DNA of 64,000 nt from NCBI RefSeq assembly GCF_003390885.1, contig NZ_QMEL01000006.1, forward strand, positions 1 to 64,000, written 5' to 3'. Source of the stretch: Pelagibacterium sediminicola. Lineage in GTDB: Bacteria; Pseudomonadota; Alphaproteobacteria; Rhizobiales; Devosiaceae. Both the position numbers and the translations under genes were made by a program. Shown piece after piece: positions 135 to 15,253 of the stretch (position 1 is the first letter of the stretch; every line of letters begins with the position of its first letter). Below the pieces are notes generated by a model that was given only the letters and a program-made list of their open reading frames with translations, was not told the origin of the DNA and did not search any database.

Positions 135-1115
135 TCAGGCAAGCACGTGCTTGCGCAATGACGTTTCGATTGCGGCCGCCGTCAGATCGCGGGCGATGAA
201 GACGATTTGGGAGGCACGAACATCCACGGGCCATCGTGGCAGAAACTGCGGCGGATAAACCATGGTCTGCACGGCCTGGAGCACCAGGGGACGATGGTCC
301 CCGCGCACTGCCAGCAAACCCTTCACCCGTAGAATTGATTTACCGCGTGCCGATAGCAGCAATTCGAGCCATGTCACGAACCGGGGCCAATCGACATCAT
401 CTTCAATCTGAACCACGAACGAGCCGATGTCGCCGCTGTGGTCGTGATGCAGATGCTCGTCATGCCCATGAGAGACAGGCGCATCGAGCAGCGCGCGTGG
501 CTCGTTGGAGAACCTGAAGGGGTCGTGCGTGGTCTCGGAGTCGATCAGTACTGCCTGGGCGTTGATCGTCCTGATCTGCTGCTCCAACATGGTGACCAGG
601 TCGGGCGGCACGAGGTCGGTCTTGGAGATGACGACGGTATCGGCCAGGCCCAATTGGTGCTCTGCTTCCGGGAAGCGCGTGATGTTTTCTGCCCCATTGA
701 TCGCATCGATCACTGTCAGCACGGGCCCGGCTTCAAAGATCGTGTTTAGGCGCCGGTCGGTCATGACCAATGTCAGTACCGGGCCCGGATCGGCCAGTCC
801 GCTGGTTTCGATGACCACCCGGTTAAAGGCCGGCGCATCGGCATGATGGCGCAGGTGATAAAGTTCGAGCAGGGTCGAGGCAAGATCGTCCCCCGCGCTG
901 CAGCAAAGGCACCCGGAATCGAGCAGCACCACATCCTCGCTGACTTCGCGCGCGATTAGATGATCGAGCCCCACCTCGCCGAACTCGTTGATTAGAACTG
1001 CGGTGTCGGCGAATTCGGGCCGCGCCAGAAACTTCGCGAGCAGCGTAGTTTTGCCGCTGCCCAGAAAGCCCGTGAGAACGTAGACCGGTATTGGGGCGTC
1101 CGGGCCGTCAGTCAC
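135..1115 (-). CDS. CobW/COG0523-family GTPase (putative metallochaperone)
   Basis: G3E-family P-loop GTPase of about 326 aa. The Walker A motif GFLGSGKTT lies near the N-terminus, followed by the CxCC metal motif in SGCLCCS, an SKTD guanine-specificity motif, and a His-rich stretch (HGHDEHLHHDH) at about residue 215 before the CobW C-terminal domain. Family members insert or deliver Zn, Co or Fe to client enzymes. The start is taken as the GTG at 1115, directly after the ridA stop; an ATG at 1208 would overlap ridA by 92 bp. It is the last gene of a gntR-ridA-cobW unit. Because the neighbourhood is full of metal-dependent amidohydrolases, a role in loading them with metal is plausible but only inferred. 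Confidence 0.85.
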   Translation of the reverse strand: MTDGPDAPIPVYVLTGFLGSGKTTLLAKFLARPEFADTAVLINEFGEVGLDHLIAREVSEDVVLLDSGCLCCSAGDDLASTLLELYHLRHHADAPAFNRVVIETSGLADPGPVLTLVMTDRRLNTIFEAGPVLTVIDAINGAENITRFPEAEHQLGLADTVVISKTDLVPPDLVTMLEQQIRTINAQAVLIDSETTHDPFRFSNEPRALLDAPVSHGHDEHLHHDHSGDIGSFVVQIEDDVDWPRFVTWLELLLSARGKSILRVKGLLAVRGDHRPLVLQAVQTMVYPPQFLPRWPVDVRASQIVFIARDLTAAAIETSLRKHVLA

Positions 1116-1116
1116 G

Positions 1117-1584
1117 TCACGCAATCTCGAAGATCGCGTCGACCTCGACGGGGACATTGCGCGGAAGCGAATAAACGCCGACGGCGGCCCGGGCATGGCG
1201 GCCCGCATCGCCGAACACCTCGACCATCAGGTCCGAGGCGCCATTGAGGACCTTGGGATGATCGGTGAATTCGGGCACGGCGTTGATGAATCCGCCGAGC
1301 CGGACGACATTGACCACGCGGTCCAGGTCGCCGCCCACCGCGTCGCGCAGATGGGCGAGGATGTTGATGGCGCAGATTCGCGCGGCATCCTGGCCCTCTT
1401 CGATCGAATAATCCGCACCTAGCTTGCCGGTATAGACATCCTTGCCGTCACGCGCGGGCACCTGGCCCGATACATAAAGGCTCGTACCGAGCACCCGGGT
1501 AGGGACATAATTGGCGAGTGGGGCGGATGTGGCCGGCAAGGTAATGCCAAGGTCCGCAAGCCGGCTTTCGATCTTTCCTGTCAT
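1117..1584 (-). CDS. RidA family protein (YjgF/UK114 type)
   Basis: Protein of 155 aa, in the longer RidA subgroup, with the typical YVSGQVP strand, a helix containing INILAHLRDAVGG, and a conserved RAAVGVYSLPRNVPVEVDA end. RidA proteins hydrolyse reactive enamine/imine intermediates to keto acids and ammonia, protecting PLP enzymes. The gene begins 9 bp after the gntR stop with an AGGAG Shine-Dalgarno just after that stop, so the two are co-transcribed. An imine-hydrolysing partner would suit the flavin-dependent amine dehydrogenase at 9444-10697; this link is inferred. Confidence 0.9.
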   Translation of the reverse strand: MTGKIESRLADLGITLPATSAPLANYVPTRVLGTSLYVSGQVPARDGKDVYTGKLGADYSIEEGQDAARICAINILAHLRDAVGGDLDRVVNVVRLGGFINAVPEFTDHPKVLNGASDLMVEVFGDAGRHARAAVGVYSLPRNVPVEVDAIFEIA

Positions 1585-1593
1585 AAGGATCTC

Positions 1594-2349
1594 CTAAAAG
1601 TCGCCGAACAGATCGGAACGTGCGGCGAACGGCAGATCGGCCATCCCGTTTTCGCCCAGAACGGTGAGCAGCGCGCGTTTGGTGGTGCGGATGTCGTGGA
1701 CGATGCCGCGTTTGACCGCTGCGTGTTCCCCCTTTTTCAGTGCATCGAGGATCGCCCCATGATCGGCAGCATTCCACGGCATGGAGGGAACCAGCAGCGA
1801 CATGTACATGGTTGGGCCGAACTGAAGCCAAAGTGCTTCGATCAGAGGCAGAATGACGTCCGATCCGCAGCCGCGATACAGTGTGAAGTGGAATTCCTGG
1901 TTGAACGAGAGGCAGCCAGAGATGTCGCGCTTTTCGATAGCCACCAAGAGCTTTGTATTGATCGCCGTTAGTTCCTCGATCAGTGCTGGCGTCGCCTTTC
2001 GCGCCGCCATTTCCGCGGCCATGCCTTCGAGGACTTCGCGGACCGAAAACAGGTCCTCAAGCTTGTCGGGGCCGAGCCTTGGGGGCGCAACCGAACCGTT
2101 GGCTGTTTCCTCGAGCGCACCGGCAGCGATCAGGCGGCTCAACACCTCGCGCACGGGCATGGGGCTAGTGCCCAACCCGGCAGCAAGCTTGCGCAGGCTC
2201 AAGACTTGACCGGGAAGGAATGCGCCGACCATCAACCCCCTGCGCATACGCGACAGCACGTGTTCGTGAACCTGCCTGCGCTCGCCCTTTTTCTGGGGGG
2301 GCTGGTCGAGGTCAGGTGTCGAAATGGCCTTGGCGTTCTGCATCCGCAA
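1594..2349 (-). CDS. GntR family transcriptional regulator (FadR/FCD subfamily)
   Basis: Protein of 251 aa. The N-terminal winged helix-turn-helix spans about residues 25-95 (recognition region SPMPVREVLSRLI). It is followed by an all-helical FCD ligand-binding domain with His residues in FNQEFHFTL, ADHGAIL and IVHDI that probably bind a metal; the usual first Asp appears as Asn. It reads divergently from the deaminase gene at 2519. A paired GTGATC operator (2403-2427) lies 54 bp upstream of its start, and the same site precedes two other units at 9391 and 14849. This argues that it is the autoregulated local repressor or activator of the whole island. The ligand is unknown. Confidence 0.9.
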   Translation of the reverse strand: MRMQNAKAISTPDLDQPPQKKGERRQVHEHVLSRMRRGLMVGAFLPGQVLSLRKLAAGLGTSPMPVREVLSRLIAAGALEETANGSVAPPRLGPDKLEDLFSVREVLEGMAAEMAARKATPALIEELTAINTKLLVAIEKRDISGCLSFNQEFHFTLYRGCGSDVILPLIEALWLQFGPTMYMSLLVPSMPWNAADHGAILDALKKGEHAAVKRGIVHDIRTTKRALLTVLGENGMADLPFAARSDLFGDF

Positions 2350-2402
2350 TGTCCCGTTTCGTTCAGGAGAGAAAGAGGCGTTTAACCTTGACTTGCGCCG
2401 AT

Positions 2403-2427
2403 TTGTGATCTCAGTATGTGATCATAA
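2403..2427. promoter_or_regulatory. Putative GntR operator, site A
   Basis: Between gntR and the divergent deaminase gene are two GTGATC cores, at 2405-2410 and 2418-2423, exactly 13 bp apart. Read on the minus strand the halves are TTATGATCACAT and TGAGATCACAA, nearly identical to the halves of sites B (9391) and C (14849). It is placed to control both divergent genes. Confidence 0.65.
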
Positions 2428-2518
2428 AAAGCCGGCAGCGACAAGTCCTTTGTCGCAGCTTTGCAGCCCTCCGTTTGGCTGGCGAGTATATACCAAGTTG
2501 TCACAGGGCAAAGGCGCT

Positions 2519-3865
2519 ATGATTTCGACTGAAAAGCCCAGCGGTACCAGTTTGCCATTTCCCGTCTCCAATGCCGGCCTAAACCGTCAACTCGCCGGTC
2601 TGGCGCCTGAGGGTAATGTCGTTTTGGCAAATGCAACGCTGGTAATCGAGGGCCGGCTGTCGCCGGGCGATATCGGCATTTCGGGCGGAAAGTTCGCCTT
2701 CATTGGATCTGCGCCAGAAACCCCGATTGATTGGCCACGGATCGACCTTGCCGATCGTCTATGTTTGCCAGGCTTTGTCGATCCACACACCCATCTCGAC
2801 AAAGGTCACCTAATCGGGCGGGCCGGTGCTGGCGATGGCACGCTGGAAACTGCCATCGACCTGGTCTCAAAAGACCGCGTGGACAATTGGTCGCGTGAAG
2901 ACGTCAGCACGCGTATGGCCTTCGGTCTGGCCTGCGCCCATCACTATGGCACGGCTGCGCTGCGGACCCATATCGATTCACAGCCCGATCAGTTCGAGAT
3001 ATCTTGGGACGTTTTCGAGCACCTGCGCGATCACTGGCGTGACAGGCTCGCACTGCACGGCTCCAGCCTGTTCTCGATTGTCTTTGCGCGTGATGCCGCG
3101 TTCATCGATATGGTCGCCCGGCGAGTGGCGCGGGCAGGGGGATCGTTGGGCGCAGTGACCTTTCCGCTGCCTGATCTTGACGCACTGCTCGATACGATGT
3201 TTCGGGCTGCGGACCGTTATGGCCTGTCGCTCGATTTCCATGCCGATGAAACCAGCGATGCGGCCTCTGATACATTGTCTCGGATCGCAGCTGCCTGTCT
3301 TCGTCACGGCATGAAAGGCAAAGTCGTGGCCGGCCATTGCTGTTCGCTGGCATTGCAGGATGCGCTCGAACGCGACCGGACGCTCGAATTGGTTGCAGAG
3401 GCCGGGATCGGGTTGATCTGCCTGCCTGCGTGCAATCTGTATTTGCAGGATCGGCGGTTCGACGGCACAACCCCGCGCTGGAGGGGCGTCACCGCATTCA
3501 AGGAGGCCAGAGCGCGCGGTATCGATGTGGCGCTCGGTTCGGACAATATCCGTGATCCATTCCACCCCTTCGGCGATCTCGATATGCTCGAAACGTTGGG
3601 ACTGGGCGTTCGAGCGCTCCATCTGGACAGCCCGGTTAGCGCTTGGGTCGACGCTGTCACCGTGAAACCGGCGTCTATGCTGGGGATCGATGCGGGCAAG
3701 ATCGCTGTCGGCCAGCGGGCAGATTTCACGATCTTTGAAGGGCGCGATTTTACCGAAGTGCTTGCCCGACGCGAGCCCGATCGGATTGTCATGCGTGATG
3801 GGCGAGCCATAAACGCGGCATTGCCTTCCTATCGAGAACTCGACGGCCCATTCGAGCACAGATGA
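2519..3865 (+). CDS. Amidohydrolase, cytosine/creatinine deaminase-like
   Basis: Metal-dependent hydrolase of about 448 aa in the cytosine deaminase branch. Signatures in order are DPHTHLDKGH (metal His pair plus the family Lys), HADET (metal His and catalytic Glu), GHCCS (metal His) and GSDN (catalytic Asp). Cytosine deaminase and bacterial creatinine deaminase (creatinine to N-methylhydantoin plus ammonia) share this fold, so the substrate cannot be fixed by motif. The ATG at 2519 is chosen because it follows an AAAGG and begins the family domain; the frame is open further upstream but there it covers the operator. The gene diverges from gntR and stands alone on the plus strand, facing the long minus-strand operon. 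Confidence 0.8.
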   Translation: MISTEKPSGTSLPFPVSNAGLNRQLAGLAPEGNVVLANATLVIEGRLSPGDIGISGGKFAFIGSAPETPIDWPRIDLADRLCLPGFVDPHTHLDKGHLIGRAGAGDGTLETAIDLVSKDRVDNWSREDVSTRMAFGLACAHHYGTAALRTHIDSQPDQFEISWDVFEHLRDHWRDRLALHGSSLFSIVFARDAAFIDMVARRVARAGGSLGAVTFPLPDLDALLDTMFRAADRYGLSLDFHADETSDAASDTLSRIAAACLRHGMKGKVVAGHCCSLALQDALERDRTLELVAEAGIGLICLPACNLYLQDRRFDGTTPRWRGVTAFKEARARGIDVALGSDNIRDPFHPFGDLDMLETLGLGVRALHLDSPVSAWVDAVTVKPASMLGIDAGKIAVGQRADFTIFEGRDFTEVLARREPDRIVMRDGRAINAALPSYRELDGPFEHR

Positions 3866-4127: not shown

Positions 4128-5120
4128 TCAGTCCGCGGTTGCTCCGACTTGGTAGAGTTCCACCTTCGTGCCGTCAGGGTCCGCGATGTAGATCGTCAAT
4201 CCATATGGACCGTTGTGCAGCTCGTTAAAGAATTTCACACCGGCAGATTTGAGTTTGGCCGACATGGCGCGCACGTCATTGACCTCGAAGGCGATATGAT
4301 CGAGTTGCCGATGACCACCTTCGCGCCCTTGTGTTAGGGCAATGCCCTGATGAAATGCTGTAAACGCCCGGCCGTCCGCCAGAGGCTTGGCCGGACGGAT
4401 CGTGAAGCCGAGCTGTTCAGTATAAAATTTCACAGATGTGTCGATGTTATCGACCAAAATGAGCTGGTGGCCATATTCAAGCACGCGCGGCTCGGTCTGG
4501 CTGTCGATCCACTCGATCATGGCGCTTGAATCGGACATCTCACAAAGATACTGCGCCCAGACCTTCTTGGCGGTTTCTTCCCATTCGCCATTTACACCCG
4601 ATATGCAGTCGTCGACGGCAATAACGTCATAATCGCGCAGATAGGCTTCGCGGATCGATGTCTCAACACACGCATTTGTTGTAGCCCCGGTGACGAAAAG
4701 GTGCTGGACGCCCAACATCTTCAGCATCATCTCCAGCCGAGTCTCATAGAACGCGCCGAAGCGGTGCTTGCGAATGACGAATTCGGGATTGACCTCCGAG
4801 AGGGGCTTGAGTTCATCTACGAACTCTTCGTCCCATGACCCTGCCAGTGCGGAAACCTGCTTGCGTTTGGAGGTGTGACCGGCAAGTTTCTTGCGCGCCC
4901 GATTGTGATCGGTGGCAAAATGCTCCTGTTTGGTCCAAATAACCGGCACTCCGGCATTCTGGCAGCGCGTAATCAGCTTGTGGAGCGGTGAGACAATGGT
5001 CGACAGACGTTTGGTATCGATCCCGGATACGCCGAGCGTGCCTTCTTCATGGATGAATGCGTTCTGTAGATCGATCACGAGCAGCGCCGACTTCCGAACG
5101 TCGAGTTGGTCCAGGCTCAT
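4128..5120 (-). CDS. Isochorismatase-family cysteine hydrolase fused to a VOC (glyoxalase) domain
   Basis: Two-domain protein of about 330 aa. Residues 1-195 form an isochorismatase-like hydrolase with the Asp of LLVIDLQNAF, the Lys of FVIRKHRFGAF and the nucleophile Cys of TGATTNACVETS, the Asp-Lys-Cys triad of N-carbamoylsarcosine amidase and relatives. Residues 210-330 are a vicinal-oxygen-chelate domain (LILVDNIDTSVKFYTEQLGF; QLDHIAFEV; IADPDGTKVELYQ). The start is the ATG at 5120, with GGAGG upstream and a 4-bp overlap with the tautomerase stop. It is the last gene of the six-gene operon. An N-carbamoyl amide substrate would fit the upstream hydantoinase, but this is inferred. The fusion is uncommon. 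Confidence 0.85.
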   Translation of the reverse strand: MSLDQLDVRKSALLVIDLQNAFIHEEGTLGVSGIDTKRLSTIVSPLHKLITRCQNAGVPVIWTKQEHFATDHNRARKKLAGHTSKRKQVSALAGSWDEEFVDELKPLSEVNPEFVIRKHRFGAFYETRLEMMLKMLGVQHLFVTGATTNACVETSIREAYLRDYDVIAVDDCISGVNGEWEETAKKVWAQYLCEMSDSSAMIEWIDSQTEPRVLEYGHQLILVDNIDTSVKFYTEQLGFTIRPAKPLADGRAFTAFHQGIALTQGREGGHRQLDHIAFEVNDVRAMSAKLKSAGVKFFNELHNGPYGLTIYIADPDGTKVELYQVGATAD

Positions 5121-5317
5121 TTCTTGTTTTCCTCCATATCGATCCCCAGTACACCTGCGCGGCCCCAACTGTCCTTGGGCGTATCGTGGATGACCACGTG
5201 CAGGTGCTCGGGTTTGCAGGCAGCCTCTTCGACCATGGCCTTGGTTATGGCTTTGACGAGGTTGCGCTTCTGATCAACAGTGCGCCCCTCCCAGAATTCG
5301 ACAATCACGAATGGCAT
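5117..5317 (-). CDS. 4-oxalocrotonate tautomerase family protein
   Basis: Small protein of 66 aa that begins Met-Pro-Phe, leaving the catalytic N-terminal proline of the tautomerase superfamily after Met removal. The VIVEFWEGRT strand, the helix KRNLVKAITKAMVEEA and the HVVIHDTP strand match the beta-alpha-beta unit. A longer reading from 5353 is rejected because the ATG at 5317 has a GAGGAG Shine-Dalgarno and gives the required Pro-1. It starts 1 base after the upstream stop and overlaps the next gene by 4 bp. It probably interconverts keto/enol or imine/enamine forms of a pathway intermediate; the substrate is unknown. Confidence 0.88.
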   Translation of the reverse strand: MPFVIVEFWEGRTVDQKRNLVKAITKAMVEEAACKPEHLHVVIHDTPKDSWGRAGVLGIDMEENKK

Positions 5318-5318
5318 C

Positions 5319-6008
5319 TCAGTTCTCCTCTTTTTGGGCTTGGCTGCTGGCATTTCTTGCCCAGGTGGGGACAGGCGGAGCGAATCCGGTGACCAGATCG
5401 CTGTCGCCCCGGTTTTCGCCGGAGATCAGCCAGAGTGGGCGGTTGGTGTAATTGATGAGAACCTGTTCCTGCATGCAGATACGATTTGCCGGGAAGGCAG
5501 GGTCTCGGATGAAGTGGCATCTTGCCGACATGAGTCGGACGACGAGTATCGGGGTGCGGTCAAGCGTGAGCGTTTCCAGGGCAGACACGATTTCGGCATG
5601 GTCTACGCAGGCCAGTATCTCGATGGTCTCGGATATGGCGAGAACCACTATCGCTCCCTGCAGTTGGACCGCTGGCCAGTAGCGGCCCTCGGCATCGCGT
5701 GGAGAGACTGAAATATAGTCGGCTCCACGCAGATAGAGTTCGCTATCCCACAAGATGATGTCGTTGCCGAGGATGCTGCGGGCGCGTTCGATCAACTCCG
5801 ATGATTCGCAAGCTTCCAGGAAGCGCCACGGATCGGTAAAGTTGGCCGCAGATCCCCAGGGGTTGTGGATGCCCGAAAGCTGCTCCTGCATTAGGTCTGG
5901 ACGCGATTGCAGTGAACGCACAAGCGTGGACAGCGGCGGGCGCTCACCCAGAATAGGCGTTCGTCCGGCTAGCGGCAGATCAGTGCTGTCCGCTTGCCTG
6001 ATCATCAT
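5319..6008 (-). CDS. Uncharacterised protein, remotely like phytanoyl-CoA dioxygenase
   Basis: Protein of about 229 aa with no clear family match. The stretch GNDIILWDSELYL followed by GRYWPAVQLQGAIVVLA, and the later arrangement of ILVVRLMSARCH, resemble the double-stranded beta-helix core of PhyH-type Fe(II)/2-oxoglutarate oxygenases. However, the iron-binding HxD and distal His are not visible at the expected places. It could be an inactive or repurposed PhyH relative. The start at 6008 (or 6005) overlaps the hydantoinase stop by 4 bp, so it belongs to the same translationally coupled operon. The function is not assigned. Confidence 0.55.
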   Translation of the reverse strand: MMIRQADSTDLPLAGRTPILGERPPLSTLVRSLQSRPDLMQEQLSGIHNPWGSAANFTDPWRFLEACESSELIERARSILGNDIILWDSELYLRGADYISVSPRDAEGRYWPAVQLQGAIVVLAISETIEILACVDHAEIVSALETLTLDRTPILVVRLMSARCHFIRDPAFPANRICMQEQVLINYTNRPLWLISGENRGDSDLVTGFAPPVPTWARNASSQAQKEEN

Positions 6009-7351
6009 GCGGGTACCGTCACACAACGGCCGCGACCATAATGCTCATCGGACACTTGGCCATTCTCGTAGACCACGTCGCCGCGCGCCACAGTGAGCAC
6101 CGGCCAGCCTTTGAGTTTCCAGCCTTCATAGATGCAGGTGCCTTTGCCCGTGTGCACGACCTCACGCTCTTCGTCGAGATCGACAAGCACCAGATCGGCG
6201 TCGAAGCCGACCTCGATGTCGCCCTTGCGCGGCCAGAGGCCGAAGCGGCGCGCAGGATTGTACGAATTGACCTCGACCAGTCTTGAAAGCGGCAGGCCGC
6301 GCTGATGAACGCCGAAATGCAGCATGAGTGAAAGTTCCCAGGGGAAGCTGACCACGCCGGGAAATTCTGTCCACAGATCCTCACCCTTTTTGGGCAGGAA
6401 CGGAACGTGATCGGTTCCCAGCGAATAGACCGAGCCGTTGAGCATGCCGTCCCAAAGCCCCTCGAGTTCCGTGCGGTCGCGCAGGGGCGGGGATATCTTG
6501 GCCTTCATGTCGAGATCTTCGTCGTAGCACGTGCGGGTCAGATAGTGCGGACAGGTCTCGACCGTCACTTGAACGCCGCGTGCCCGCGCCTCTGCGGCGA
6601 GAATGGGGCCCATTCCCACCGAGGTATGGACAAGATGGAGCGAACATCCGGTCTTTTCCGCCAGAAAAATCATTCGGCGAATGGTCTCCACCTCGCAAAA
6701 GGCAGGTCGGGACTCGGTGTAGGCACCCAGATCCTGGCGGCCCGTTGCCGCAATTTCCTTCTTGATCCAGGATGCGATCTGGGTGTTTTCGCAGTGAACA
6801 TTGATCACGCCGCCCGGCACTTGAGCGAGAATTCGCATTGCCGCATAGACCCACCCGTCGGTCGCCGGCACGATGCCGATCGGATTGTCGGGCTCGTATC
6901 CGAAATAGCATTTGAAGGATTTTACCCCTGTATGCTCGATGATTTTGGGGATTTCAGCGATGTGCTCTTCGCGCTGAATGCCGAAATGAAACCCAAAATC
7001 GATGACCGAGTTTGCTTCGCCAATGGCTTTTCGTTCATCGTAAAAGGGCAGGTAGGATTCCTTGAGATTGCGGATATAGAGCAGGGCGGTGGTCACGCCT
7101 CCGGACGCTGCGGCAGCCGTTTCGGTGCGCATGTCTTCATCGAAGGGAAATTTCACGCCCAGATGGCAATGTGGATCGATCAGCCCCGGCATCAACACGC
7201 GCCCCGCCGCATCGATCGTCCGTGCCGCCTCGGGCAGGACGTCGTTGGCGCCGGTGGCGATGACCTTCTGGTCCTTTATGGCAACTCCGCCAAAGAACTC
7301 TCCATCATGGCGTATGACCCGGGCATTCTTGATAACGAGATCGGCCTTCAT
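6005..7351 (-). CDS. Dihydropyrimidinase/hydantoinase-family cyclic amidohydrolase
   Basis: Protein of 448 aa, the usual length for D-hydantoinases and allantoinases. It shows all five metal-site elements: DPHCHLG, a Lys in GVKSFKCYFGY (the carboxylated bridging lysine), NVHCEN, LHLVHTS and GTDHVPF. The family opens cyclic ureides (hydantoins, dihydropyrimidines, allantoin) to N-carbamoyl amino acids. The start is the ATG at 7351, which overlaps the upstream stop by 4 bp; the frame stays open far upstream but that part is only the other gene in a shifted frame. The downstream isochorismatase-type hydrolase could remove the carbamoyl group. The exact ring substrate cannot be told. Confidence 0.88.
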   Translation of the reverse strand: MKADLVIKNARVIRHDGEFFGGVAIKDQKVIATGANDVLPEAARTIDAAGRVLMPGLIDPHCHLGVKFPFDEDMRTETAAAASGGVTTALLYIRNLKESYLPFYDERKAIGEANSVIDFGFHFGIQREEHIAEIPKIIEHTGVKSFKCYFGYEPDNPIGIVPATDGWVYAAMRILAQVPGGVINVHCENTQIASWIKKEIAATGRQDLGAYTESRPAFCEVETIRRMIFLAEKTGCSLHLVHTSVGMGPILAAEARARGVQVTVETCPHYLTRTCYDEDLDMKAKISPPLRDRTELEGLWDGMLNGSVYSLGTDHVPFLPKKGEDLWTEFPGVVSFPWELSLMLHFGVHQRGLPLSRLVEVNSYNPARRFGLWPRKGDIEVGFDADLVLVDLDEEREVVHTGKGTCIYEGWKLKGWPVLTVARGDVVYENGQVSDEHYGRGRCVTVPA

Positions 7352-8238: not shown

Positions 8239-9323
8239 CGTGCGCTCACTTTTCTTATCAGTGCGTCTTTTGACAGGCCGGCAATGCCCATCGCATCGGC
8301 GGTGCGTCCGCCGGTGTGGTAGTCGATGCCGACGGCGGCCTCTGCTAGCGCGTAGAGCGCGTCTGCCACCGGCACAGCCACTCCAGCGATTTGCGCGAGT
8401 TCGCGGAAGGGCAGAAGGCCATGCCCGAAATCTTCGCGATAATAGCGATGCTGGAGTGAATCGGGTGCCTTGATCTTGGCGTTTGCGACACCGCCCGCTA
8501 TTGCGCTGCGATAGTCGGAAGTGTCGGCGACATCGGCTTCCACAGTTCCGATCAGCTTCATTTCTTCAATCAGATTAGGCAGTTTATGACCGAAAGCCGC
8601 CGCAACGTTCAGTCTCTCGTGATCGAGCCGCTCCATGACGCGCGCGACACCATCGGTCATCGCGTCCACATAGAATGTGAAGTCGCCCGCGGTCGCCTCT
8701 ACCCAGGCCACGCCGAGGACAGCGCCGGGCGTGTGGAGGACCATGTTAACATTACAAAGATCGGATGCCAGAACGTCGCTAACCGGGCTGGCGCCGGGAA
8801 AGAGCAGGGTTGCGGTTGTAAGATGACTGTCATCGCCCCCCAGGACTGCAGCGCGAACCTGGCCGGCACGACCGGTCACCGTCACTTCATCGGGTTTCAG
8901 CTTGCGGGCAACGTAGGTGAGTGTTGAGAATTCGACGACCGGTGGCGCGGTGCGGCCTGCTGTCTCGAATGCGTGGGCAAATTCCAGCGCCCCGCCGGTG
9001 TGCCCAGGATTGAGAACAACCAGCCTGTCCGACGGCCAGCCTGCTTCGGCGAGCGCTTTCGCCATAGACGCGTGCGAAAACGTGGGAAGAGTTACGAGCG
9101 CCACCTCGCAGTCCTTTACCACGGCGCCGAGATCGGAGGATATCGTTTGTGGGCGAGCGACACCCGAACCCAGCACGCCATTATATGCGATGCCGCCCAA
9201 CTCCAGGAAAGGCGCCAGCGTCGATTCCGATCTGGCCCAGTACGAGACAGCGTGTCCGGCCTGTGTCAGTTCGGCAACCGCTGCGGCGCCTCCCGCGCCT
9301 CCTCCCAGCACTGCTACCTTCAT
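8235..9323 (-). CDS. NAD/NADP octopine/nopaline (opine) dehydrogenase family protein
   Basis: Protein of about 362 aa. The N-terminal Rossmann motif VAVLGGGAGGAAAVAEL is followed by the opine dehydrogenase C-terminal domain, with the family His in VLHTPGAVLG and the RYYREDFGHGLLPF helix. Opine dehydrogenases reversibly condense an amino acid with a keto acid by reduction of the imine. The start is the ATG at 9323 with AGGAGG upstream; a longer frame to 9386 lacks a Shine-Dalgarno. It is the first gene of the six-gene operon, and operator site B lies 68 bp upstream. In this catabolic setting it may act in the oxidative, opine-cleaving direction. Confidence 0.85.
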   Translation of the reverse strand: MKVAVLGGGAGGAAAVAELTQAGHAVSYWARSESTLAPFLELGGIAYNGVLGSGVARPQTISSDLGAVVKDCEVALVTLPTFSHASMAKALAEAGWPSDRLVVLNPGHTGGALEFAHAFETAGRTAPPVVEFSTLTYVARKLKPDEVTVTGRAGQVRAAVLGGDDSHLTTATLLFPGASPVSDVLASDLCNVNMVLHTPGAVLGVAWVEATAGDFTFYVDAMTDGVARVMERLDHERLNVAAAFGHKLPNLIEEMKLIGTVEADVADTSDYRSAIAGGVANAKIKAPDSLQHRYYREDFGHGLLPFRELAQIAGVAVPVADALYALAEAAVGIDYHTGGRTADAMGIAGLSKDALIRKVSAR

Positions 9324-9390: not shown

Positions 9391-9414
9391 TGAGATCACA
9401 CCTTATGATCACAA
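9391..9414. promoter_or_regulatory. Putative GntR operator, site B
   Basis: TGAGATCACA (9391-9400) and TTATGATCACAA (9403-9414) lie between the DadA-like gene and the opine dehydrogenase operon. Their GATCAC cores are 13 bp apart, as in sites A and C. It would control the six-gene operon 8235-9323 through 4128. Confidence 0.65.
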
Positions 9415-9443: not shown

Positions 9444-10697
9444 TTACCCGGCAAGCTTCAGGCTGCCGACACCGTCACTGTCCACGCATTCAGCGATCAT
9501 ATCAGCGGTTGCGGCCGACAACGTCCAGCCAAGATGGCCGTGACCGGTATTGTAATAAATGCCCGGTAGACGGCCTTTGCCTACACGCGGCAGCATGGAT
9601 GGCATCATGGGGCGAAGGCCGGCCCAAGGGACCACGCGGCGCGTACTGGTTCCCGGAAACAGCGTGCGGGTCCAGGCTACAAGTGGTTCGATCCGTTCGC
9701 TGCGGATATCGCGGTTGACGCCGTTGAACTCGGCCGTTCCCGCCACGCGAAACCGGTCCTTGCCCAGACGCGAGGTGACGATTTTGGCCTTATCGTCAAG
9801 AAGGCTCACCCAGGGCGCTGCGTTCTGGCTTTGCTCGTCATCGAGATGAACCGTGATCGAATACCCCTTTACCGGATAGACGTTCACCCGGTCTCCCACC
9901 ATGGCTGCGAGGGCGCGACTGCCGCAGCCGGCACAAATGATAATGCCGTCGAACCCTTCCTTTCGTACTGATGGTGCGTGATCTTCCGATCCCTGCCACT
10001 CAATTATATGGCGCCCGTTTTCCGTGCGAAGTCGCGTTACCTGGGCGTCGAATGCAAACCGCACACCCTTTTTTTCGCAGGCATTTGCAAGCCCGGAGGT
10101 GAACTTGTGGATATCGCCGGTGGAATCTGAAGGGGTAAAGAAGCCGGCATAGATGTCGCCACGAACCGTGGGTTCGATTGTCCGAACGTCCTCAGGCGAA
10201 ATCGCACGCCTGTCCAGTCCCCCCTGGGCGAGCAGCGCGTTCACTTTCTTGGCGTGGTCAAAGCTCGGCTTGTCCCAATAGAGGTGAAGTATGCCGCGGC
10301 GTTCGAGATCGAATGCGATGTTCTCGTTTTCGGCAATTTCAAAAAGGTGGCTGCGCGCGGCAATGGCAAGCCGGGTGGTCTCGACGGTATTTTCTCGGTA
10401 GCGGCCGATATTGCTCATGAACTCGGCCAGCCATGAGTATTTATGCCACGATGGCGAAGGGTTGAGCAGAAGGGGCGCGTCGCGCTGCAGCATCCATTTC
10501 ATGCCCTTGAGGAGCGTGGACCAATGGTTCCAGACTTCGGCATTGCTGGCCGAGAGCTGGCCGCCATTTGCGAAAGAGGTTTCCATGGCCGCGTAGCGGT
10601 TTCGGTCGAAAACCGTGACGGAATGGCCGCGCTCCATGAGCGCATAAGCGGTCGTGATGCCGGTGATGCCGGCGCCGATAACAGCGAGTTGGGGCAT
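9444..10697 (-). CDS. FAD-dependent D-amino acid dehydrogenase-like oxidoreductase (DadA family)
   Basis: Protein of about 417 aa. The FAD-binding motif LAVIGAGITGITTAYAL opens the protein, followed by ETSFANGGQLSASNAE, a DadA hallmark, a central PVKGYSITV segment, and the C-terminal WAGLRPMMPSMLP and NTGHGHLGWTLS flavin contacts. The family oxidises D-amino acids, sarcosine or other N-substituted glycines to imines. The start is put at 10697 (TGGGAAC upstream) rather than 10709. A tandem glycine riboswitch lies directly upstream, which suggests that the product or substrate is linked to glycine. It is the last gene after the MLE, M24 and TrzA-type genes. Confidence 0.87.
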   Translation of the reverse strand: MPQLAVIGAGITGITTAYALMERGHSVTVFDRNRYAAMETSFANGGQLSASNAEVWNHWSTLLKGMKWMLQRDAPLLLNPSPSWHKYSWLAEFMSNIGRYRENTVETTRLAIAARSHLFEIAENENIAFDLERRGILHLYWDKPSFDHAKKVNALLAQGGLDRRAISPEDVRTIEPTVRGDIYAGFFTPSDSTGDIHKFTSGLANACEKKGVRFAFDAQVTRLRTENGRHIIEWQGSEDHAPSVRKEGFDGIIICAGCGSRALAAMVGDRVNVYPVKGYSITVHLDDEQSQNAAPWVSLLDDKAKIVTSRLGKDRFRVAGTAEFNGVNRDIRSERIEPLVAWTRTLFPGTSTRRVVPWAGLRPMMPSMLPRVGKGRLPGIYYNTGHGHLGWTLSAATADMIAECVDSDGVGSLKLAG

Positions 10698-10752
10698 GGT
10701 GGTTCCCATAATTGGATCTTTGATAGCGCCACGATTTTCGCCGCGCCGATGG

Positions 10753-10946
10753 TCCCCAATCTGTCGCTGTTACCTGAGAGCTTTCCGTGGGCCATGACCA
10801 CGGTTTCCCCTTCGGTGGGCAGGCGGATAGCAACGATCCACTCTGCCTCTCTCCAGATGTTTTCGCTGCCTGGTCAGCTTTGCCTGAGAGATTCCTGGGG
10901 GGTTGCTCCGTCGGCGCCGACATTGTTGGCCGGTCTCTCCCCGGCA
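10753..10946 (-). ncRNA. Tandem glycine riboswitch (two aptamers)
   Basis: Two glycine aptamers are visible in series on the minus strand. Aptamer 1 starts with CCGGGGAGAGACCGG near 10944 and carries CCGACGGAGCAA and ATCTCTCAGGCAAA. Aptamer 2 starts with CTGGAGAGAGGCAGAG near 10858 and carries CACCGAAGGGGAAA and GCTCTCAGGTAACAG. The linker is short, as in classic tandem glycine riboswitches. It begins 44 bp after the TrzA-type gene and ends about 55 bp before the DadA-like start, so it should control that gene by glycine level. Whether it works as an ON or OFF switch cannot be read from the sequence. Confidence 0.9.
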
Positions 10947-10989
10947 GCGGAATGTGTCGCCGGGCCATCGCGCTGACCCGGCGGCGGTT

Positions 10990-12432
10990 TCAATTTCCTT
11001 CGTCGTAAAGCGTTGTGGTTGTATCAACGTCGTCTTTGTGCAGGCCGGCGCGGATCACCGCCTCTGCCGCCAGTTCACGAGCCTTGCTGCGGATTTTTTT
11101 CTCGTCCACGCCATAGACTTGGCCGTCACCGTACACCTTGCGGCCATTGACCCATGTCTGACACACCGATGCGGTAGAGGCGGAATAAACAAGCGCCTGC
11201 AGCGGATCGTGGAACGGTGTCCATTCGACGTGGTCGAGGTCGAACAGGATGAAGTCGGCCTTCTTGCCGATCTCAAGCGAGCCGATTTCATCGTCCCACA
11301 TGAGGGCCCTGGCGCCCTCGATCGTTGCGGCACGCAGTGCCTGTCGGGCGGTGAAGATGTCGGGTTGAACCCGGGCGTCCTTGAACATCCCCGCAACCAG
11401 AAGCATCTGGCGCATTAGGTTCATGTTGCCGGCCGCCGAGACGCCATCGGTTCCGAGGCCGACCTTGACCCCCGCTGCGACCATTTCGGGATACTTTCCG
11501 ATGGCGGTCGCCCCCTTGCCCAATTTGAAAGAAGAGCAGGGACAAAATGCCACCGCTGCTCCACGTTCGGCGAGAAGTTTGACCTCTTCATCGGTGACGG
11601 CAGCACCGTGCGCGATCACGAGGTTCTTGCGAATGCCGCCCGCATTGTCGATGCGGGTGATAGGCCACACGCCGTACTTGCCTTCACACACTTTGGCTTC
11701 TTCGATCGAGGTCGCCAGGTGGTAGGTGGTGCCGACGCCCAGACGCTCGGCCAACTCGACCGCGCCCACGTGAAGCTCCAGCGAGCACGGTTCCTTACCT
11801 TCGATGTTAACCCAGCAGCGCGCCCGCCCGTCGAGGGCGCCGTTATATTTGACGACGCACTTCTCGAGTTCTTCAAGCGCCGTCTGCGCGTCGGGAAAGA
11901 AATGGTGGTCGGCCATTTCCTCGGTCCAGCCCTTTGGCAATTCGGCAGGGCGATTGTCGGCCGCGTGGCGCCCCGTAATGCCCCGGATGCCGGTGGGTTC
12001 CATGGCCTTTATGACGATGCCGGGATCATACTGCGAGCCCATGTCGAGAAAGCATGTGGTGCCACAGCGCAGCATTTCGGTGATCCCGAGAAGGGCACCC
12101 CAATACTCGTCCTCATCGGTCACATGCGCGTAGAACGGCTTGGCCCAGTGAAACACCCATGCGCGGGTGTTTAGATTGTCGGGGAACACGGCGCGCGACA
12201 GCGTTTCGGACAGGTGGACGTGGCTGTCGATAAAGCCCGGGCACATGCCCATCATCGCGCCGTCGATCACCTCATCGAATGACTCCCGGACGTGGCGCCC
12301 GGCGATCTCATCTGCCCCACCGATGTCGGCGATCCGATCATTGTCCAAGACAACGCTAGCTTTGCGTAAAACAGTATCGTCGGCATCGACGGTGAAAATG
12401 AAGTTCAGATTTTCGATTAGGGTTCGCAACAT
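10990..12432 (-). CDS. TrzA/AtzA-type amidohydrolase (putative deaminase)
   Basis: Metal-dependent amidohydrolase of 480 aa. Ligand motifs are DSHVHLSE (HxH), TTYHLATS (His), VIAHGAAV (His) and GLGTDGVSA (Asp). This is the subtype III set of chlorohydrolases, S-adenosylhomocysteine/5-methylthioadenosine deaminases, guanine and 8-oxoguanine deaminases. The C-terminal beta-sandwich (GSLEIGKKADFILFDLD) is complete. It starts 26 bp after the M24 gene stop in the same direction and is followed by the glycine riboswitch. The substrate is unknown; a deaminase or dechlorinase acting on an amino-substituted ring is the family expectation. Confidence 0.85.
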   Translation of the reverse strand: MLRTLIENLNFIFTVDADDTVLRKASVVLDNDRIADIGGADEIAGRHVRESFDEVIDGAMMGMCPGFIDSHVHLSETLSRAVFPDNLNTRAWVFHWAKPFYAHVTDEDEYWGALLGITEMLRCGTTCFLDMGSQYDPGIVIKAMEPTGIRGITGRHAADNRPAELPKGWTEEMADHHFFPDAQTALEELEKCVVKYNGALDGRARCWVNIEGKEPCSLELHVGAVELAERLGVGTTYHLATSIEEAKVCEGKYGVWPITRIDNAGGIRKNLVIAHGAAVTDEEVKLLAERGAAVAFCPCSSFKLGKGATAIGKYPEMVAAGVKVGLGTDGVSAAGNMNLMRQMLLVAGMFKDARVQPDIFTARQALRAATIEGARALMWDDEIGSLEIGKKADFILFDLDHVEWTPFHDPLQALVYSASTASVCQTWVNGRKVYGDGQVYGVDEKKIRSKARELAAEAVIRAGLHKDDVDTTTTLYDEGN

Positions 12433-12458
12433 TTCCTCCCCGGAGCGTGTCGAATATA

Positions 12459-13631
12459 TCAGGCGATCGAGCGGGTCTGGGCCTTATGGATGCCCTGACC
12501 GCAAACGATCAGATTGTCTGTATCTGAGTAGTCGGAAAGCAGTTCGGACCCGCTTGCCGTCACTAACAACATATCCTTGTTTTGCATGCCGAACCCGTGG
12601 CCGGTGTCATAGCAAAGCGGTTCAAAGCCCAGCACCATGTTTTCCTCGATCGGCGCATCCGAACCCGGTTTGCCCAGAACCGGTGTCAGGCCCAAATAAG
12701 GATCTTCGTGCAGGTGCAATCCGATGCCATGGCCGACAAAGGATATGGGCGGCAAGTTCATTTGCGAAAGCTTGGCGATAAAGCTGTCATATATGGCGCG
12801 GCAGCTTGCGCCGGGCCGGACCTTGTCCATGATTTCGTATTTGCAGTCGACGAGATGGGACCAGATATCTTCGGCATGGTCGGGCGCCTCGCCGACCACG
12901 GCCGTACGGCATACACCGGCCTGATAGCCGTCGATAACGGAAAAAATTTCGACGCGGCATACATCGCCCCTCTTGAGCACGCGGTCCGACGGGCCGACAT
13001 TGGGCAGAACGCTGCGCTCTCCGGTGGCGACGATCAGCAGTTTGAAGTGTTCGGCACCCAGTGCATAAACATTGCGGGTCAGATGCCCGGCAATGTCCAT
13101 TTCCGAATCTCCCTCATCGACCGAGGCAAGCGCGTCGTAGATGGCCTGATCAGCGATGCGCGAGAGCTTGCGTAGCAAGGCGATCTCGCCGGGCGTCTTG
13201 ATCTGGCGCAGCCGCGCCAGAACCCGTTCGGCGGGAACGAAAGTCGCGGCGGGCAGGGCTGCCTGCAAGCGCATCAGATCACCGGCAGGCAAGTAGTCCA
13301 TCTCGATGGCGATTCTTGCGGATGAAAGGTCGAGTTCCGATAATTGGTCGGCCAGGACCACCATCGGGTCATCGGAAAACTCCGCCCAAATGCAGGTTGG
13401 CACATCCGGCTGTCTGCGCTTGATAGTGCTTGCTTCCATATCGACGCCGAACAGCGCCTTGGTGCCGTCGGCGGTCACGATGGCCGCGGCGTGGCGGTGG
13501 CGTATCAGGGGTTGGCTGGGAACCACAAAGCCAGTCACATATGCAAAATTTTCCGGTGAACACGAGACGATGGCATCAAAGCCGTTCTCGCGCATCGCCC
13601 GCGTCTGTTTCTCGATGATTTCCGCGCGCAT
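12459..13631 (-). CDS. M24-family 'pita-bread' hydrolase, creatinase-like
   Basis: Protein of 390 aa with an N-terminal creatinase/prolidase domain and a C-terminal M24 fold (VGHGIGLHLHE and GFEPLCYD). In prolidases two Asp residues bind metals in the segment after the first core strand. Here the aligned segment is VEIFSVIDGYQAGVCRT, with Glu and Gly at those places, so the dinuclear site looks absent. Creatinase and ectoine hydrolase are metal-free members of this fold, making a creatinase-type C-N hydrolysis more likely than peptide cleavage. It lies between the MLE gene (19-bp gap) and the TrzA-type gene, all in one operon. Confidence 0.82.
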   Translation of the reverse strand: MRAEIIEKQTRAMRENGFDAIVSCSPENFAYVTGFVVPSQPLIRHRHAAAIVTADGTKALFGVDMEASTIKRRQPDVPTCIWAEFSDDPMVVLADQLSELDLSSARIAIEMDYLPAGDLMRLQAALPAATFVPAERVLARLRQIKTPGEIALLRKLSRIADQAIYDALASVDEGDSEMDIAGHLTRNVYALGAEHFKLLIVATGERSVLPNVGPSDRVLKRGDVCRVEIFSVIDGYQAGVCRTAVVGEAPDHAEDIWSHLVDCKYEIMDKVRPGASCRAIYDSFIAKLSQMNLPPISFVGHGIGLHLHEDPYLGLTPVLGKPGSDAPIEENMVLGFEPLCYDTGHGFGMQNKDMLLVTASGSELLSDYSDTDNLIVCGQGIHKAQTRSIA

Positions 13632-13650
13632 TGATGAAACTCCCCTTCAC

Positions 13651-14811
13651 TCAGATCGCGATTTGATATTTTTCGATTTTCTTGATGTCGACTTCGATGC
13701 CCATTCCGGGCCCATCGGGAACGACGATCGCACCGTTCTCAAATTGCATTGGTGCGACAAGAAGATCGTCTTTGTAGTACAGGCCTCCGATCTGACCGTG
13801 CTGTGCTTCTGCGGGCACAGAAACGGGAATGACGCAGGACAGCGTTACTGCCGGCGAAGCGGCGGCGAGCTGAACGTTTGCCAGATTGCCTACCCCGGTT
13901 TCGATCGAACCGTTGACGTTGCAGAGAATGCCTGCGGCGCGGCACACTGCGCCCACTTCCATGGCCTTGTAGAGGCCGCCTGCTTTGGTCGTATAGATCG
14001 AGATGATCTGGACCTGACCCTGATTGATGATTTGAATCGCGTCATGGGCGTTCCATGCGGATTCGTCGGCCATGACCGGAGCGTCGATCCGCCTTGCGAC
14101 CTCGGAAATCCGCTCGATCCCCATGACGGGTTGTTCGACATATTTGATGCGGCAGCCTTCGAAGCGACGAATGATCTGGACTGCCTCGCCGGGAGATTTG
14201 TAGCCCTCGTTCGCGTCCACGCACAGCTCCATGGCATCGCCTGCGGCTTCGCGGACAGCATGAACCATGGCAACGTCACGTTCAGGGTCGACCCCGATCT
14301 TGATCTTTATCGTCTTGATGCCCTCGGCTGCGAGTTGAGCCGCTTCGGATCGCGCTTCATCGATGGAAATCAGGCCGATCGAATGGGTGACGGGTATGCG
14401 GTCACGCGACTTTCCGCCCAAAAGGACGTGAACAGGAACGTCGAGCCACCGGCCGGTGACGTCGTACGCGGCGAATTCGACCGCTGCTTTCGCATAAGGA
14501 TATCCACGAATGATTGCGTCCATTCGGGCATGGAGCTCTGCGATGTTTCCCAGTTCGATGCCGGCAACTGCCGGAGCGAGGTAAGTGTCGATAACCGCCT
14601 TCACGGTGATAGCGGATTCGCCGAAATAGCGTCCGAACTCTCCACCCCAATCCTTGAGTGCGGGGGCCTCGCCCCACCCGACACGCCCGTCGCTGTCCGT
14701 GATTTTGACCAGCACGTAGCGTCCGATCACTTCGGTTAATCCCGCCCATTTGTGTTCACGCCGGGTGGGAAGCTGCACAACGAGGGTTTCGACTGTCTTG
14801 ATCGTGGGCAC
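13651..14811 (-). CDS. Mandelate racemase/muconate lactonizing enzyme family protein
   Basis: Enolase-superfamily protein of 386 aa. The N-terminal capping domain is followed by a barrel with KIKIG (the KxK catalytic lysines), the metal ligands in CVDANEGY, YVEQPV and ADESAW, and the opposite lysine in YTTKAGG, all typical of the MLE subgroup. That subgroup includes cycloisomerases, dipeptide epimerases, N-acylamino-acid racemases and hydroxyproline-betaine epimerases; which reaction this one does is unclear. It is the first gene of the operon running down to the glycine-riboswitch-controlled flavoenzyme. Operator site C lies 38 bp upstream. Confidence 0.88.
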   Translation of the reverse strand: MPTIKTVETLVVQLPTRREHKWAGLTEVIGRYVLVKITDSDGRVGWGEAPALKDWGGEFGRYFGESAITVKAVIDTYLAPAVAGIELGNIAELHARMDAIIRGYPYAKAAVEFAAYDVTGRWLDVPVHVLLGGKSRDRIPVTHSIGLISIDEARSEAAQLAAEGIKTIKIKIGVDPERDVAMVHAVREAAGDAMELCVDANEGYKSPGEAVQIIRRFEGCRIKYVEQPVMGIERISEVARRIDAPVMADESAWNAHDAIQIINQGQVQIISIYTTKAGGLYKAMEVGAVCRAAGILCNVNGSIETGVGNLANVQLAAASPAVTLSCVIPVSVPAEAQHGQIGGLYYKDDLLVAPMQFENGAIVVPDGPGMGIEVDIKKIEKYQIAI

Positions 14812-14848
14812 GGAGTTTCCTTTTGACGCTAGGCACGTTATAGCTTGA

Positions 14849-14872
14849 TGAGATCACCAATTGTGATCACAC
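14849..14872. promoter_or_regulatory. Putative GntR operator, site C
   Basis: TGAGATCACC (14849-14858) and TTGTGATCACAC (14861-14872) have GATCAC cores 13 bp apart. They sit between the divergent MLE gene (start 14811) and the small gene at 14954. The order and spacing match site B. Confidence 0.65.
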
Positions 14873-14953
14873 ACTACTGGTGGCATTGTGCTTCGTCAAG
14901 CATGGAAGTTTCGGCTATGGGCAAAGGCAGTCTGATGGCCCTGAAAGGAAGAA

Positions 14954-15253
14954 ATGATGATAATTGAGACGACGAACTATTACGCCAAGCCCGGGAGGGA
15001 AGAAGAAGTCCTTCTTCAGCGCAGGCGAGCGACGGCTATCCGCAAGAGATTGGGCTTGCCGGAAGGCCGCACATTTGCACGGCTGGAAGCAGAAGGTCCG
15101 AACGTGCAGTGGCGCTGCGAGTTCTCATCGGAAAGTGCTTACCGCGAAGACATGGCGGCAAGGAAAGAATCGGCCGAATTTTCCGCAGCGCGGGCGCAGA
15201 TGCATACCCTGATCGAGCGTTTTGAACGACATCTGCACGAGGAAGTCGATTGA
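14954..15253 (+). CDS. Small hypothetical protein, putative dimeric alpha/beta-barrel (NIPSNAP-like)
   Basis: Protein of 99 aa starting MMIIETTNYYAKPGREEEV; the second ATG (14957) is equally possible. It has a GGAAG Shine-Dalgarno. The strand-helix pattern (a beta-strand near 3-9, a long helix, a strand VQWRCEF, and a helix with Arg and Glu) resembles ferredoxin-like dimeric barrels such as NIPSNAP or antibiotic-biosynthesis monooxygenase-type proteins, but no catalytic motif is visible. It diverges from the MLE operon and shares operator C, so it is probably part of the same regulon. A fragment resembling an integrase follows immediately downstream. Confidence 0.55.
   Translation: MMIIETTNYYAKPGREEEVLLQRRRATAIRKRLGLPEGRTFARLEAEGPNVQWRCEFSSESAYREDMAARKESAEFSAARAQMHTLIERFERHLHEEVD

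Follow-up and report, generated by a model that had tools for sequence, protein, structure and literature searches.

A conserved gene island sharing an operator-like repeat with an unlinked importer in Pelagibacterium sediminicola, and its predicted role in the breakdown of a nitrogen-ring compound

Introduction

Several described systems resemble parts of the gene cluster studied here. Creatinine degradation runs via N-methylhydantoin. Metallopeptidases of the M24 family have five metal ligands (D, D, H, E and E), and EutD/DoeA, the M24-fold enzyme of ectoine hydrolysis, acts without metal. A glycine riboswitch has been described as a regulator of malate synthase (PMC3766115, in excerpt). Here, we analyse a stretch of 64,000 nucleotides (the window) from Pelagibacterium sediminicola (NZ_QMEL01000006.1, positions 1–64,000), which begins at the first base of its genome contig (C41) and carries an island of 15 genes at positions 135–15,253. 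A preliminary description had read this island as a possible creatinine- or hydantoin-type pathway ending in glycine, accompanied by extra enzymes.

We propose, with a probability of about 0.55, that the island belongs to a single catabolic regulon, with its GntR protein as the presumed regulator, and that this regulon would import and open an organic nitrogen-ring compound. The predicted substrate is most likely a heteroaromatic or fused pyrimidine (pteridine or oxidised-purine class), not creatinine.

Results

Organization of the island

The minus strand bears, in this order, enol, m24, amido2, a tandem glycine riboswitch, dadA, opdh, dpaA, hyd, phyH, 4-OT, isoVOC, gntR, ridA and cobW, while amido1 and the gene for a 99-aa protein lie on the plus strand. 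Since the open reading frames of opdh, dpaA, hyd and phyH overlap and those of 4-OT and isoVOC follow 1–2 bases behind, the six genes from opdh to isoVOC very probably form a single transcript. The features are as follows.

135–1208, minus strand: cobW, CobW/COG0523 GTPase, putative metallochaperone (PF02492, 142 bits; PF07683, 75 bits; the start may be further in)
1117–1584, minus strand: ridA, RidA/YjgF-type imine hydrolase (PF14588, 119 bits)
1594–2349, minus strand: gntR, GntR regulator of the FCD group, presumed repeat binder (PF00392, PF07729)
2404–2424, plus strand: operator-like repeat between gntR and amido1, 0 mismatches
2519–3865, plus strand: amido1, CodA-like amidohydrolase with HxDE intact, optional in the island (NF005759, 495.7 bits, cut-off 403)
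4128–5120, minus strand: isoVOC, RutB-like isochorismatase domain (residues 1–200; PF00857, 134 bits) fused to a VOC/glyoxalase domain (PF00903, 60 bits)
5120–5317, minus strand: 4-OT, 4-oxalocrotonate-type tautomerase, 65 aa, Met-Pro start (PF01361, 62.2 bits)
5319–6026, minus strand: phyH, PhyH-like protein, by fold only (Foldseek 2a1x, E 1.1e-4)
6005–7351, minus strand: hyd, hydantoinase/allantoinase-type cyclic amidohydrolase (nearest solved structure, L-hydantoinase 1gkr, 217 bits)
7348–8238, minus strand: dpaA, DpaA-like (dipicolinate synthase A family) oxidoreductase (PF16924, 71 bits; TIGR02853 below cut-off)
8235–9323, minus strand: opdh, opine dehydrogenase family protein (PF02317, 127.7 bits; 1bg6, 159 bits)
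9393–9413, minus strand: operator-like repeat ahead of the unit opdh-dpaA-hyd-phyH-4-OT-isoVOC, 1 mismatch
9444–10,709, minus strand: dadA, DadA-like FAD enzyme, putative glycine dehydrogenase/oxidase from its riboswitch and malate synthase context (NF009074, 727 bits, cut-off 494)
10,759–10,952, minus strand: tandem glycine riboswitch, two RF00504 aptamers (10,952–10,861 at 61.9 bits; 10,858–10,759 at 39.4 bits, 52.9 in another scan; gathering score 32)
10,990–12,432, minus strand: amido2, COG0402/TRZ-ATZ-type amidohydrolase without the deaminase Glu (PF01979, 181 bits)
12,459–13,631, minus strand: m24, M24 protein with three of five metal-ligand positions replaced, nearer prolidases (94 bits) than creatinase (52 bits)
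13,651–14,811, minus strand: enol, enolase-superfamily enzyme, muconate-cycloisomerase subgroup (TIGR02534, 255 bits, below cut-off 335; Lys/Asp/Glu motifs kept)
14,849–14,869, plus strand: operator-like repeat ahead of the unit enol-m24-amido2, 1 mismatch
14,954–15,253, plus strand: 99-aa conserved protein, family not recognised, beside enol in 19 of 27 loci

Family searches of the window proteins returned every component named in the preliminary description at or near its expected place, with some corrections. The glycine riboswitch is a tandem of two aptamers rather than a single element, and the tautomerase is the 65-aa 4-OT-type gene starting at 5317. The isochorismatase-type hydrolase is fused to a VOC/glyoxalase domain, and its likeness to N-carbamoylsarcosine amidase is weak (34 bits, against 80 bits for RutB, its nearest relative). 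For the PhyH-like protein, a weak fold match stands, while neither a Pfam match nor the conserved H-x-D...H iron site was found.

A shared repeat connects the island with an importer

The repeat TGTGATCW-N5-TGTGATCA is present upstream of opdh, enol and gntR/amido1, i.e., before all three transcription units of the island. At up to three mismatches, the window holds six matches (three sites, both strands) versus 0.51 expected, a count reached by none of 100 shuffles; an N3 spacing, with one window match against 0.38 expected, was dropped in favour of N5. Throughout the 3.24-Mb genome, only four places fit with at most one mismatch (C41:2404, C41:9393, C41:14849 and C4:45657), and one unrelated place fits with two. 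On contig C4, some 110 bp separate the site from the downstream matched stretch of an unlinked gene for an NMT1/THI5-type binding protein (PF09084, assigned on the copy in locus L024), after which come permease and ATPase genes. The three importer proteins are 56–58%, 76% and 81% identical, respectively, to copies that adjoin the island elsewhere. PntA starts behind the C4 importer genes and is cut by the contig end; PntAB stands behind the importer on three annotated plasmid records, on one of which the stretch includes only PntA.

Because the repeat precedes three island units and the unlinked importer, and only four such places exist genome-wide, the island and the importer probably constitute one regulon with its own uptake. 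The GntR protein presumably binds the repeat. The single regulated island of the preliminary description is supported by the shared repeat and by the co-conservation described below.

We collected 27 loci in a scan with the DpaA-like protein and judged gene presence in the fetched stretches by tblastn. In these loci, the repeat gave 239 matches (both strands) versus 1 for the reversed control. Among genes with room, it was found at no more than one mismatch within 300 bp upstream of enol in 18/21, of opdh in 21/26, of gntR in 22/24 and of the importer binding-protein gene in 19/22, counts that are descriptive, as the pattern was derived from upstream regions of these same loci, so that the one independent test is the unlinked importer site in the genome of the window.

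Conservation and distribution of the island

The loci belong to Hyphomicrobiales where named more closely, plus two metagenome-assembled genomes labelled Rhodobacteraceae and one labelled Proteobacteria. Across all 27, we found opdh and dpaA in 27 each, hyd in 26, phyH, 4-OT and the VOC domain in 25 each, the isochorismatase domain, gntR and ridA in 24 each, cobW in 23, enol, m24, amido2 and each of the three importer genes in 22, the 99-aa protein in 19, amido1 in 16, dadA in 12, a GlcG/HbpS-like gene in 10 and malate synthase G in 7. Four loci (L026, L029, L037 and L039) are cut before enol, and in L046 enol and m24 lie farther along the contig. The tautomerase and the VOC domain are kept in 25/25 loci that extend far enough, and the hydantoinase and the RutB-like hydrolase in all judgeable loci except one. 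For amido1, whose place is beyond the end of L022 and L039, 9 of the 25 judgeable loci lack the gene, as judged at the locus, the remainder of those genomes not having been searched.

Without the near-identical locus L021, identity to the window amounts to 77–92% for hyd, 75–90% for amido2, 78–85% for m24 and enol, 62–79% for dpaA and 58–75% for opdh; with L021, the ranges become 77–99% (hyd), 75–98% (amido2), 78–97% (m24 and enol) and 58–94% (opdh). The less conserved cobW and phyH span 39–93% and 40–91%, L021 included. Comparison of gene neighbourhoods, as proposed earlier, indicates that the island is kept beyond chance in the 27 loci.

Another Devosiaceae genome, Cucumibacter, has the island as well (DpaA 78% identical). 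In a core-protein tree (24 rows, each represented by four or more of the six proteins), the window falls together with L021 and the two Rhodobacteraceae-labelled genomes (support 1.0), apart from Cucumibacter, which suggests horizontal transfer of the island. DpaA matches occur in 18 plasmid records, 14 of them of the island type with an opine dehydrogenase gene (Aminobacter 10, Shinella 3, Phyllobacterium 1), the other four being Bacillota dpaA/dpsA genes. Probably, the island is common to many bacteria of soil and sea. When 385 genomes of the class were searched for DpaA, a single additional genome turned up, in which two remote relatives (L054 and L055) occupy other contexts.

Some side observations concern the copies and surroundings of the island. 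In the single alphaproteobacterial genome with the remote DpaA relatives, one of the two sits with M24-like and enolase-like frames. Plasmid pAA03 of Aminobacter aminovorans (L051, 6137–9492 and 24,444–27,799) carries a shortened second island copy without enol or m24 and with amido2 matched over 49% only; it is flanked by two TniQ/TniB/Mu-type transposase gene sets with the same protein accessions and resembles a composite transposon. In the window, the gene for the 99-aa protein, which has no Pfam or NCBIfam match, shares its intergenic repeat with enol. The neighbouring group at 15,420–24,615 encodes a LysR regulator, a dipeptide-type ABC transporter, a DapA-family protein and two adjacent nucleoside hydrolases, and no match of the operator-like repeat was found within it.

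The glycine riboswitch and dadA form a portable module

In 12 loci, dadA lies beside the island, 11 times between amido2 and opdh, and a glycine aptamer precedes it in all 12; no such aptamer was detected in five dadA-less island loci scanned (L046, L022, L023, L027 and L031). Eleven loci have no such module next to the island, and in three more, cut upstream, the GlcG-like gene is still beside opdh. Six island genomes were checked for dadA: at E 1e-60, three had no match, and a fourth had just one, of 37%. Seven dadA relatives away from the island were scanned, and all seven have the riboswitch; one stems from the L040 genome, and the other six were chosen among 30 listed out of 785 plasmid records. 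Three come from island carriers (Pseudochelatococcus and two Shinella), and the remaining ones from Mesorhizobium loti, Agrobacterium, Burkholderia and Sinorhizobium meliloti plasmids outside the DpaA-matching records. Since dadA occurs with its riboswitch in places without the island, and 11 loci lack the pair next to the island, riboswitch-dadA is, on its gene neighbourhoods, a portable module and not part of the island core.

In Mesorhizobium loti, the genes behind dadA encode malate synthase G and a haem-binding (HbpS/GlcG-like) protein, and malate synthase G adjoins DadA in some island loci. Together with the riboswitch, this context suggests that DadA oxidises glycine. Two further sites were noted: the Burkholderia module lies near a dimethylformamidase large subunit, and the second tandem glycine riboswitch of the window's genome (C35:309598-309798) stands beside genes that by eye look like those of glycine cleavage.

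The module may even be a hitch-hiker without a metabolic link, the island yielding some other product. We regard this as a genuine possibility, although not the expected one. Its portability, with 7/7 relatives under the riboswitch elsewhere, and the 11 loci without it speak for such a reading, as does the repeat, which was not found at the off-island module sites. On the other hand, dadA holds the same place in 11 of its 12 island loci, and in L046 a pair of flavoenzymes of the ThiO/SoxA kind (below cut-offs) is divergent from opdh with the repeat between them.

Entry enzymes behind the repeat and the split of locus L045

Additional enzymes stand behind the same repeat in some loci. A molybdenum hydroxylase gene follows the permease on the same strand in L045 (repeat at 11,872), and L022 bears a molybdenum hydroxylase (PF00941/PF03450 subunit) with repeats at 860–893 just before a possible start at 851. 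A Rieske oxygenase is present in three Bradyrhizobium loci, on the same strand behind the 99-aa gene, and in L046; its nearest solved relative is dicamba O-demethylase (224 bits; NdmA, 75 bits). Locus L046 also encodes a deaminase from a likely ATG at 12,364, about 30 bp from the repeat at 12,395, which passes NF009059/PRK12393 (618.6 bits, cut-off 543) and scores 480 bits against 2paj, which we take to be isoxanthopterin deaminase. As the molybdenum hydroxylases, the Rieske oxygenases and this deaminase homologue are behind one repeat, they favour heteroaromatic substrates, perhaps of the pteridine or oxidised-purine kind.

In the narrower version, pteridines or oxidised purines (8-oxoguanine relatives) would be the specific substrate, with the opine-type dehydrogenase and RidA splitting a pyrazine-derived N-(carboxymethyl)amino intermediate and so freeing glycine. 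We hold this to be rather doubtful. The L046 deaminase and the molybdenum hydroxylases of L022 and L045 point this way, and the genes assigned to an oxidised-purine riboswitch include both NMT1/THI5-like ones and PRK12393 amidohydrolases (PMC7373994, in excerpt). However, a close copy of the deaminase was found in just one of 26 island genomes (L046 itself; L028 excluded), three others matching at only 34–37%, and none of 19 loci scanned had a xanthine riboswitch at or above the gathering score. A plasmid of Neorhizobium EC2-8 (L056, 9811–26,775) has FolE and a PTPS-family protein close to a relative of amido2 that matches in several pieces (68%); the same stretch contains xanthine-dehydrogenase-type genes, a RutA-like monooxygenase, PyrD/PyrK-like genes and a carbamoylase-type hydrolase.

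The L045 genome yielded no hydantoinase (E 1e-40), no amido2 (E 1e-20) and no isochorismatase domain, and the same hydantoinase search recovered the copy in the L046 genome. The L045 locus retains enol, m24, opdh, dpaA, 4-OT, gntR, ridA, the importer and dadA, and beside the molybdenum hydroxylase it encodes the VOC half alone (71%) as a free frame of 131 aa from its ATG (PF00903, 62 bits). Because the lower genes and a free VOC protein are kept while the three others were not found, amido2, the hydantoinase and the isochorismatase domain may form an upper, ring-opening module that feeds a lower one, to which the VOC domain may belong.

A simpler scheme would be a plain ureide route, in which a 5-substituted hydantoin or a dihydropyrimidine, with no aromatic ring, is opened and decarbamoylated and the amino acid processed by the other enzymes. 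The hydantoinase with its near-invariant motifs and the RutB-like hydrolase, present in all judgeable loci but one, speak for it. We nevertheless consider it unlikely: the molybdenum hydroxylases, Rieske oxygenases and deaminase behind the repeat indicate a (hetero)aromatic entry in some loci, and such a route has no obvious need for a tautomerase and a muconate-cycloisomerase-type enzyme.

Catalytic residues speak against creatinine as the substrate

Catalytic motifs are retained in amido1, the hydantoinase, the isochorismatase domain and the enolase-type enzyme. In amido1, the HxH, HxDE, H and D motifs are kept. The HxH, Lys, H, H and D metal motifs of the hydantoinase are identical in 26–27 of 27 sequences, none of 25 listed NCBIfam models reaching its cut-off for this protein. 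The Asp-Lys-Cys triad of the isochorismatase domain is found in 25/25 sequences, and the H, H, E ligands of the VOC domain are conserved. The tautomerase has Pro after Met and Arg-11, passes PF01361 (cut-off 22) and PRK02220 (55.6 bits, cut-off 55) and stays below the cut-offs of other NCBIfam models. The opine dehydrogenase passes PF02317 (cut-off 30) with its His conserved in 28/28. The DpaA-like protein fails the cut-off for dipicolinate synthase subunit A (TIGR02853, 164.7 vs. 319.65 bits).

Three proteins have lost standard catalytic groups, which makes new chemistry likely. At the deaminase H-x-x-E position, where the solved deaminase 4f0r has HIHE and the L046 deaminase HLAE, amido2 reads HLAT in 22 and HLTT in 1 of 23 sequences, and loss of the Glu in 23/23 speaks against amido2 as a deaminase. 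The ligand positions of the M24 protein, aligned with 5cdl, are E, G, H, E and K and are conserved in 23/23. Foldseek returns creatinase among many matches, the fold being equally near prolidases and creatinase, which together with the sequence scores weakens its assignment as a creatinase. In the PhyH-like protein (best Foldseek match 2a1x, weak, TM 0.35), H54 is the sole invariant His across 24 sequences, and the missing iron ligands speak against an active Fe(II)/2-oxoglutarate oxygenase.

These data bear on the creatinine route (creatinine to N-methylhydantoin, N-carbamoylsarcosine, sarcosine and glycine), which we now regard as most improbable. The hydantoinase, the RutB-like hydrolase, the CodA-like amido1, the M24 fold and the glycine riboswitch would suit it, and the ureide/cyclic-amide chemistry seen earlier holds, given the first two. 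Against it stand the optional amido1, the core amido2 without its Glu, an amidase domain far from N-carbamoylsarcosine amidohydrolase, an M24 sequence nearer prolidases, and the L045 genome, where no hydantoinase, amido2 or amidase domain turned up. Of the metal-free, creatinase-like M24 protein, the replaced ligands stand and the creatinase likeness is weakened; glycine remains a possible exit, with its riboswitch assigned to a portable module outside the core. Six conserved proteins or domains (opine dehydrogenase, DpaA, enolase-type enzyme, tautomerase, PhyH-like protein and VOC domain) are unexplained by creatinine. As the preliminary description noted for all but the last, they lie outside that route, and the new pathway it thought possible appears probable.

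Breakdown of arginine glycation adducts (hydroimidazolones) or opines, which the opine dehydrogenase, the VOC domain and a cyclic-guanidine-like logic would fit, has hardly any chance, as we recognised neither arginine nor ornithine enzymes among the island genes, the entry oxygenases would be left unexplained and no such pathway was among the matches listed in the literature search. The glycation-adduct idea was rejected or weakened for lack of a supporting gene, and so was a mycosporine idea, at which no search was aimed.

Discussion

In this work, we provide evidence for a conserved island that probably shares a regulon with its own importer. For the opening of a nitrogen-ring compound by this regulon, we propose a scheme whose every reaction step we infer. 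The compound would be taken up by the NMT1-type ABC importer and, where needed, oxygenated or deaminated by the entry enzymes. Amido2 and the hydantoinase would then hydrolyse the ring of a cyclic amide or ureide, and the RutB-like isochorismatase domain would remove the carbamoyl group as ammonia and CO2. The opine-type and DpaA-type dehydrogenases with RidA may reduce or cleave C=N bonds, probably with NADPH because PntAB adjoins the importer, and 4-OT would tautomerise the product. The VOC, M24 and enolase-type enzymes would perform the remaining steps on C=C and C-N bonds, an opine-like secondary amine being split. The C2-N fragment would leave as glycine, which the riboswitch-gated DadA would turn into glyoxylate and malate synthase G, where present, would condense to malate.

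One specific form of this scheme, which we offer as a speculation with small odds, would open the rings of pteridines or oxidised purines without passing through urate and allantoin. After oxygenation and deamination, the pyrazine side would become an N-(carboxymethyl)amino, opine-like intermediate; the hydantoinase and the RutB-like domain would remove the pyrimidine in the form of a ureide; the opine-type dehydrogenase and RidA would free glycine; and the tandem riboswitch would sense it and switch on its oxidation. If true, this would be the first gene set known to us for full ring opening of these compounds that avoids urate and allantoin.

Several points count against the proposed catabolic regulon and its heteroaromatic substrate, in addition to the derivation of the repeat pattern from the compared loci. 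The DadA module, being absent beside the island in many loci and from some of the island genomes searched, occurs under its riboswitch without the island, so that glycine may not be the island product at all. Of the 26 island genomes searched, only that of L046 has a close copy of its deaminase, and a search of one plasmid gave none. No repeat is present in the Neorhizobium locus that carries FolE and the PTPS protein. Locus L045 is also without phyH, cobW, amido1 and the 99-aa gene, and it comes from one metagenome bin in which missing genes may be unassembled, so that an empty search there indicates absence only weakly. Finally, substrate, enzyme activities and repressor binding are predictions here.

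No paper on this gene cluster was found in the literature searched. The protein families are known; their combination, the regulon and the split into modules were not found there, and the pathway is possibly new. A well-conserved regulon with an importer, spread over several families and plasmids, would mean that a nitrogen-ring compound common in soil and sea is consumed along a route absent from that literature, and the repeat offers a direct handle for finding the inducer.

The proposed regulon shares features with several known systems. With creatinine degradation it has in common the hydantoinase-type ring opening, the ureido hydrolysis, a possible glycine end and the M24 fold, whereas its deaminase is optional, its amidase RutB-like, six conserved proteins or domains are added and the gene set is modularly split. 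Like the Rut pyrimidine pathway (RutB, RutC), it has a RutB-like cysteine hydrolase domain (TIGR03614, 92 bits, far under the cut-off of 378) and a RidA-family protein; however, no RutA oxygenase was seen, a hydantoinase stands in its place and a VOC domain is fused. Ectoine hydrolysis shares the M24-fold protein as a fold neighbour, although TIGR02993 gives 82 bits against a cut-off of 613 and no deacetylase was recognised in the island. Some loci share a COG0402-type enzyme and xanthine-dehydrogenase genes with the E. coli ygeW-yqeA/ssnA purine-type cluster, as far as the excerpt of PMC4016543 describes it, while neither a carbamoyltransferase nor a carbamate kinase could be recognised among the island genes, and opine dehydrogenase, DpaA, M24 and 4-OT are added. 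In contrast to the malate synthase system mentioned above, again as excerpted (PMC3766115), the island riboswitch precedes DadA, and malate synthase G lies downstream in some loci.

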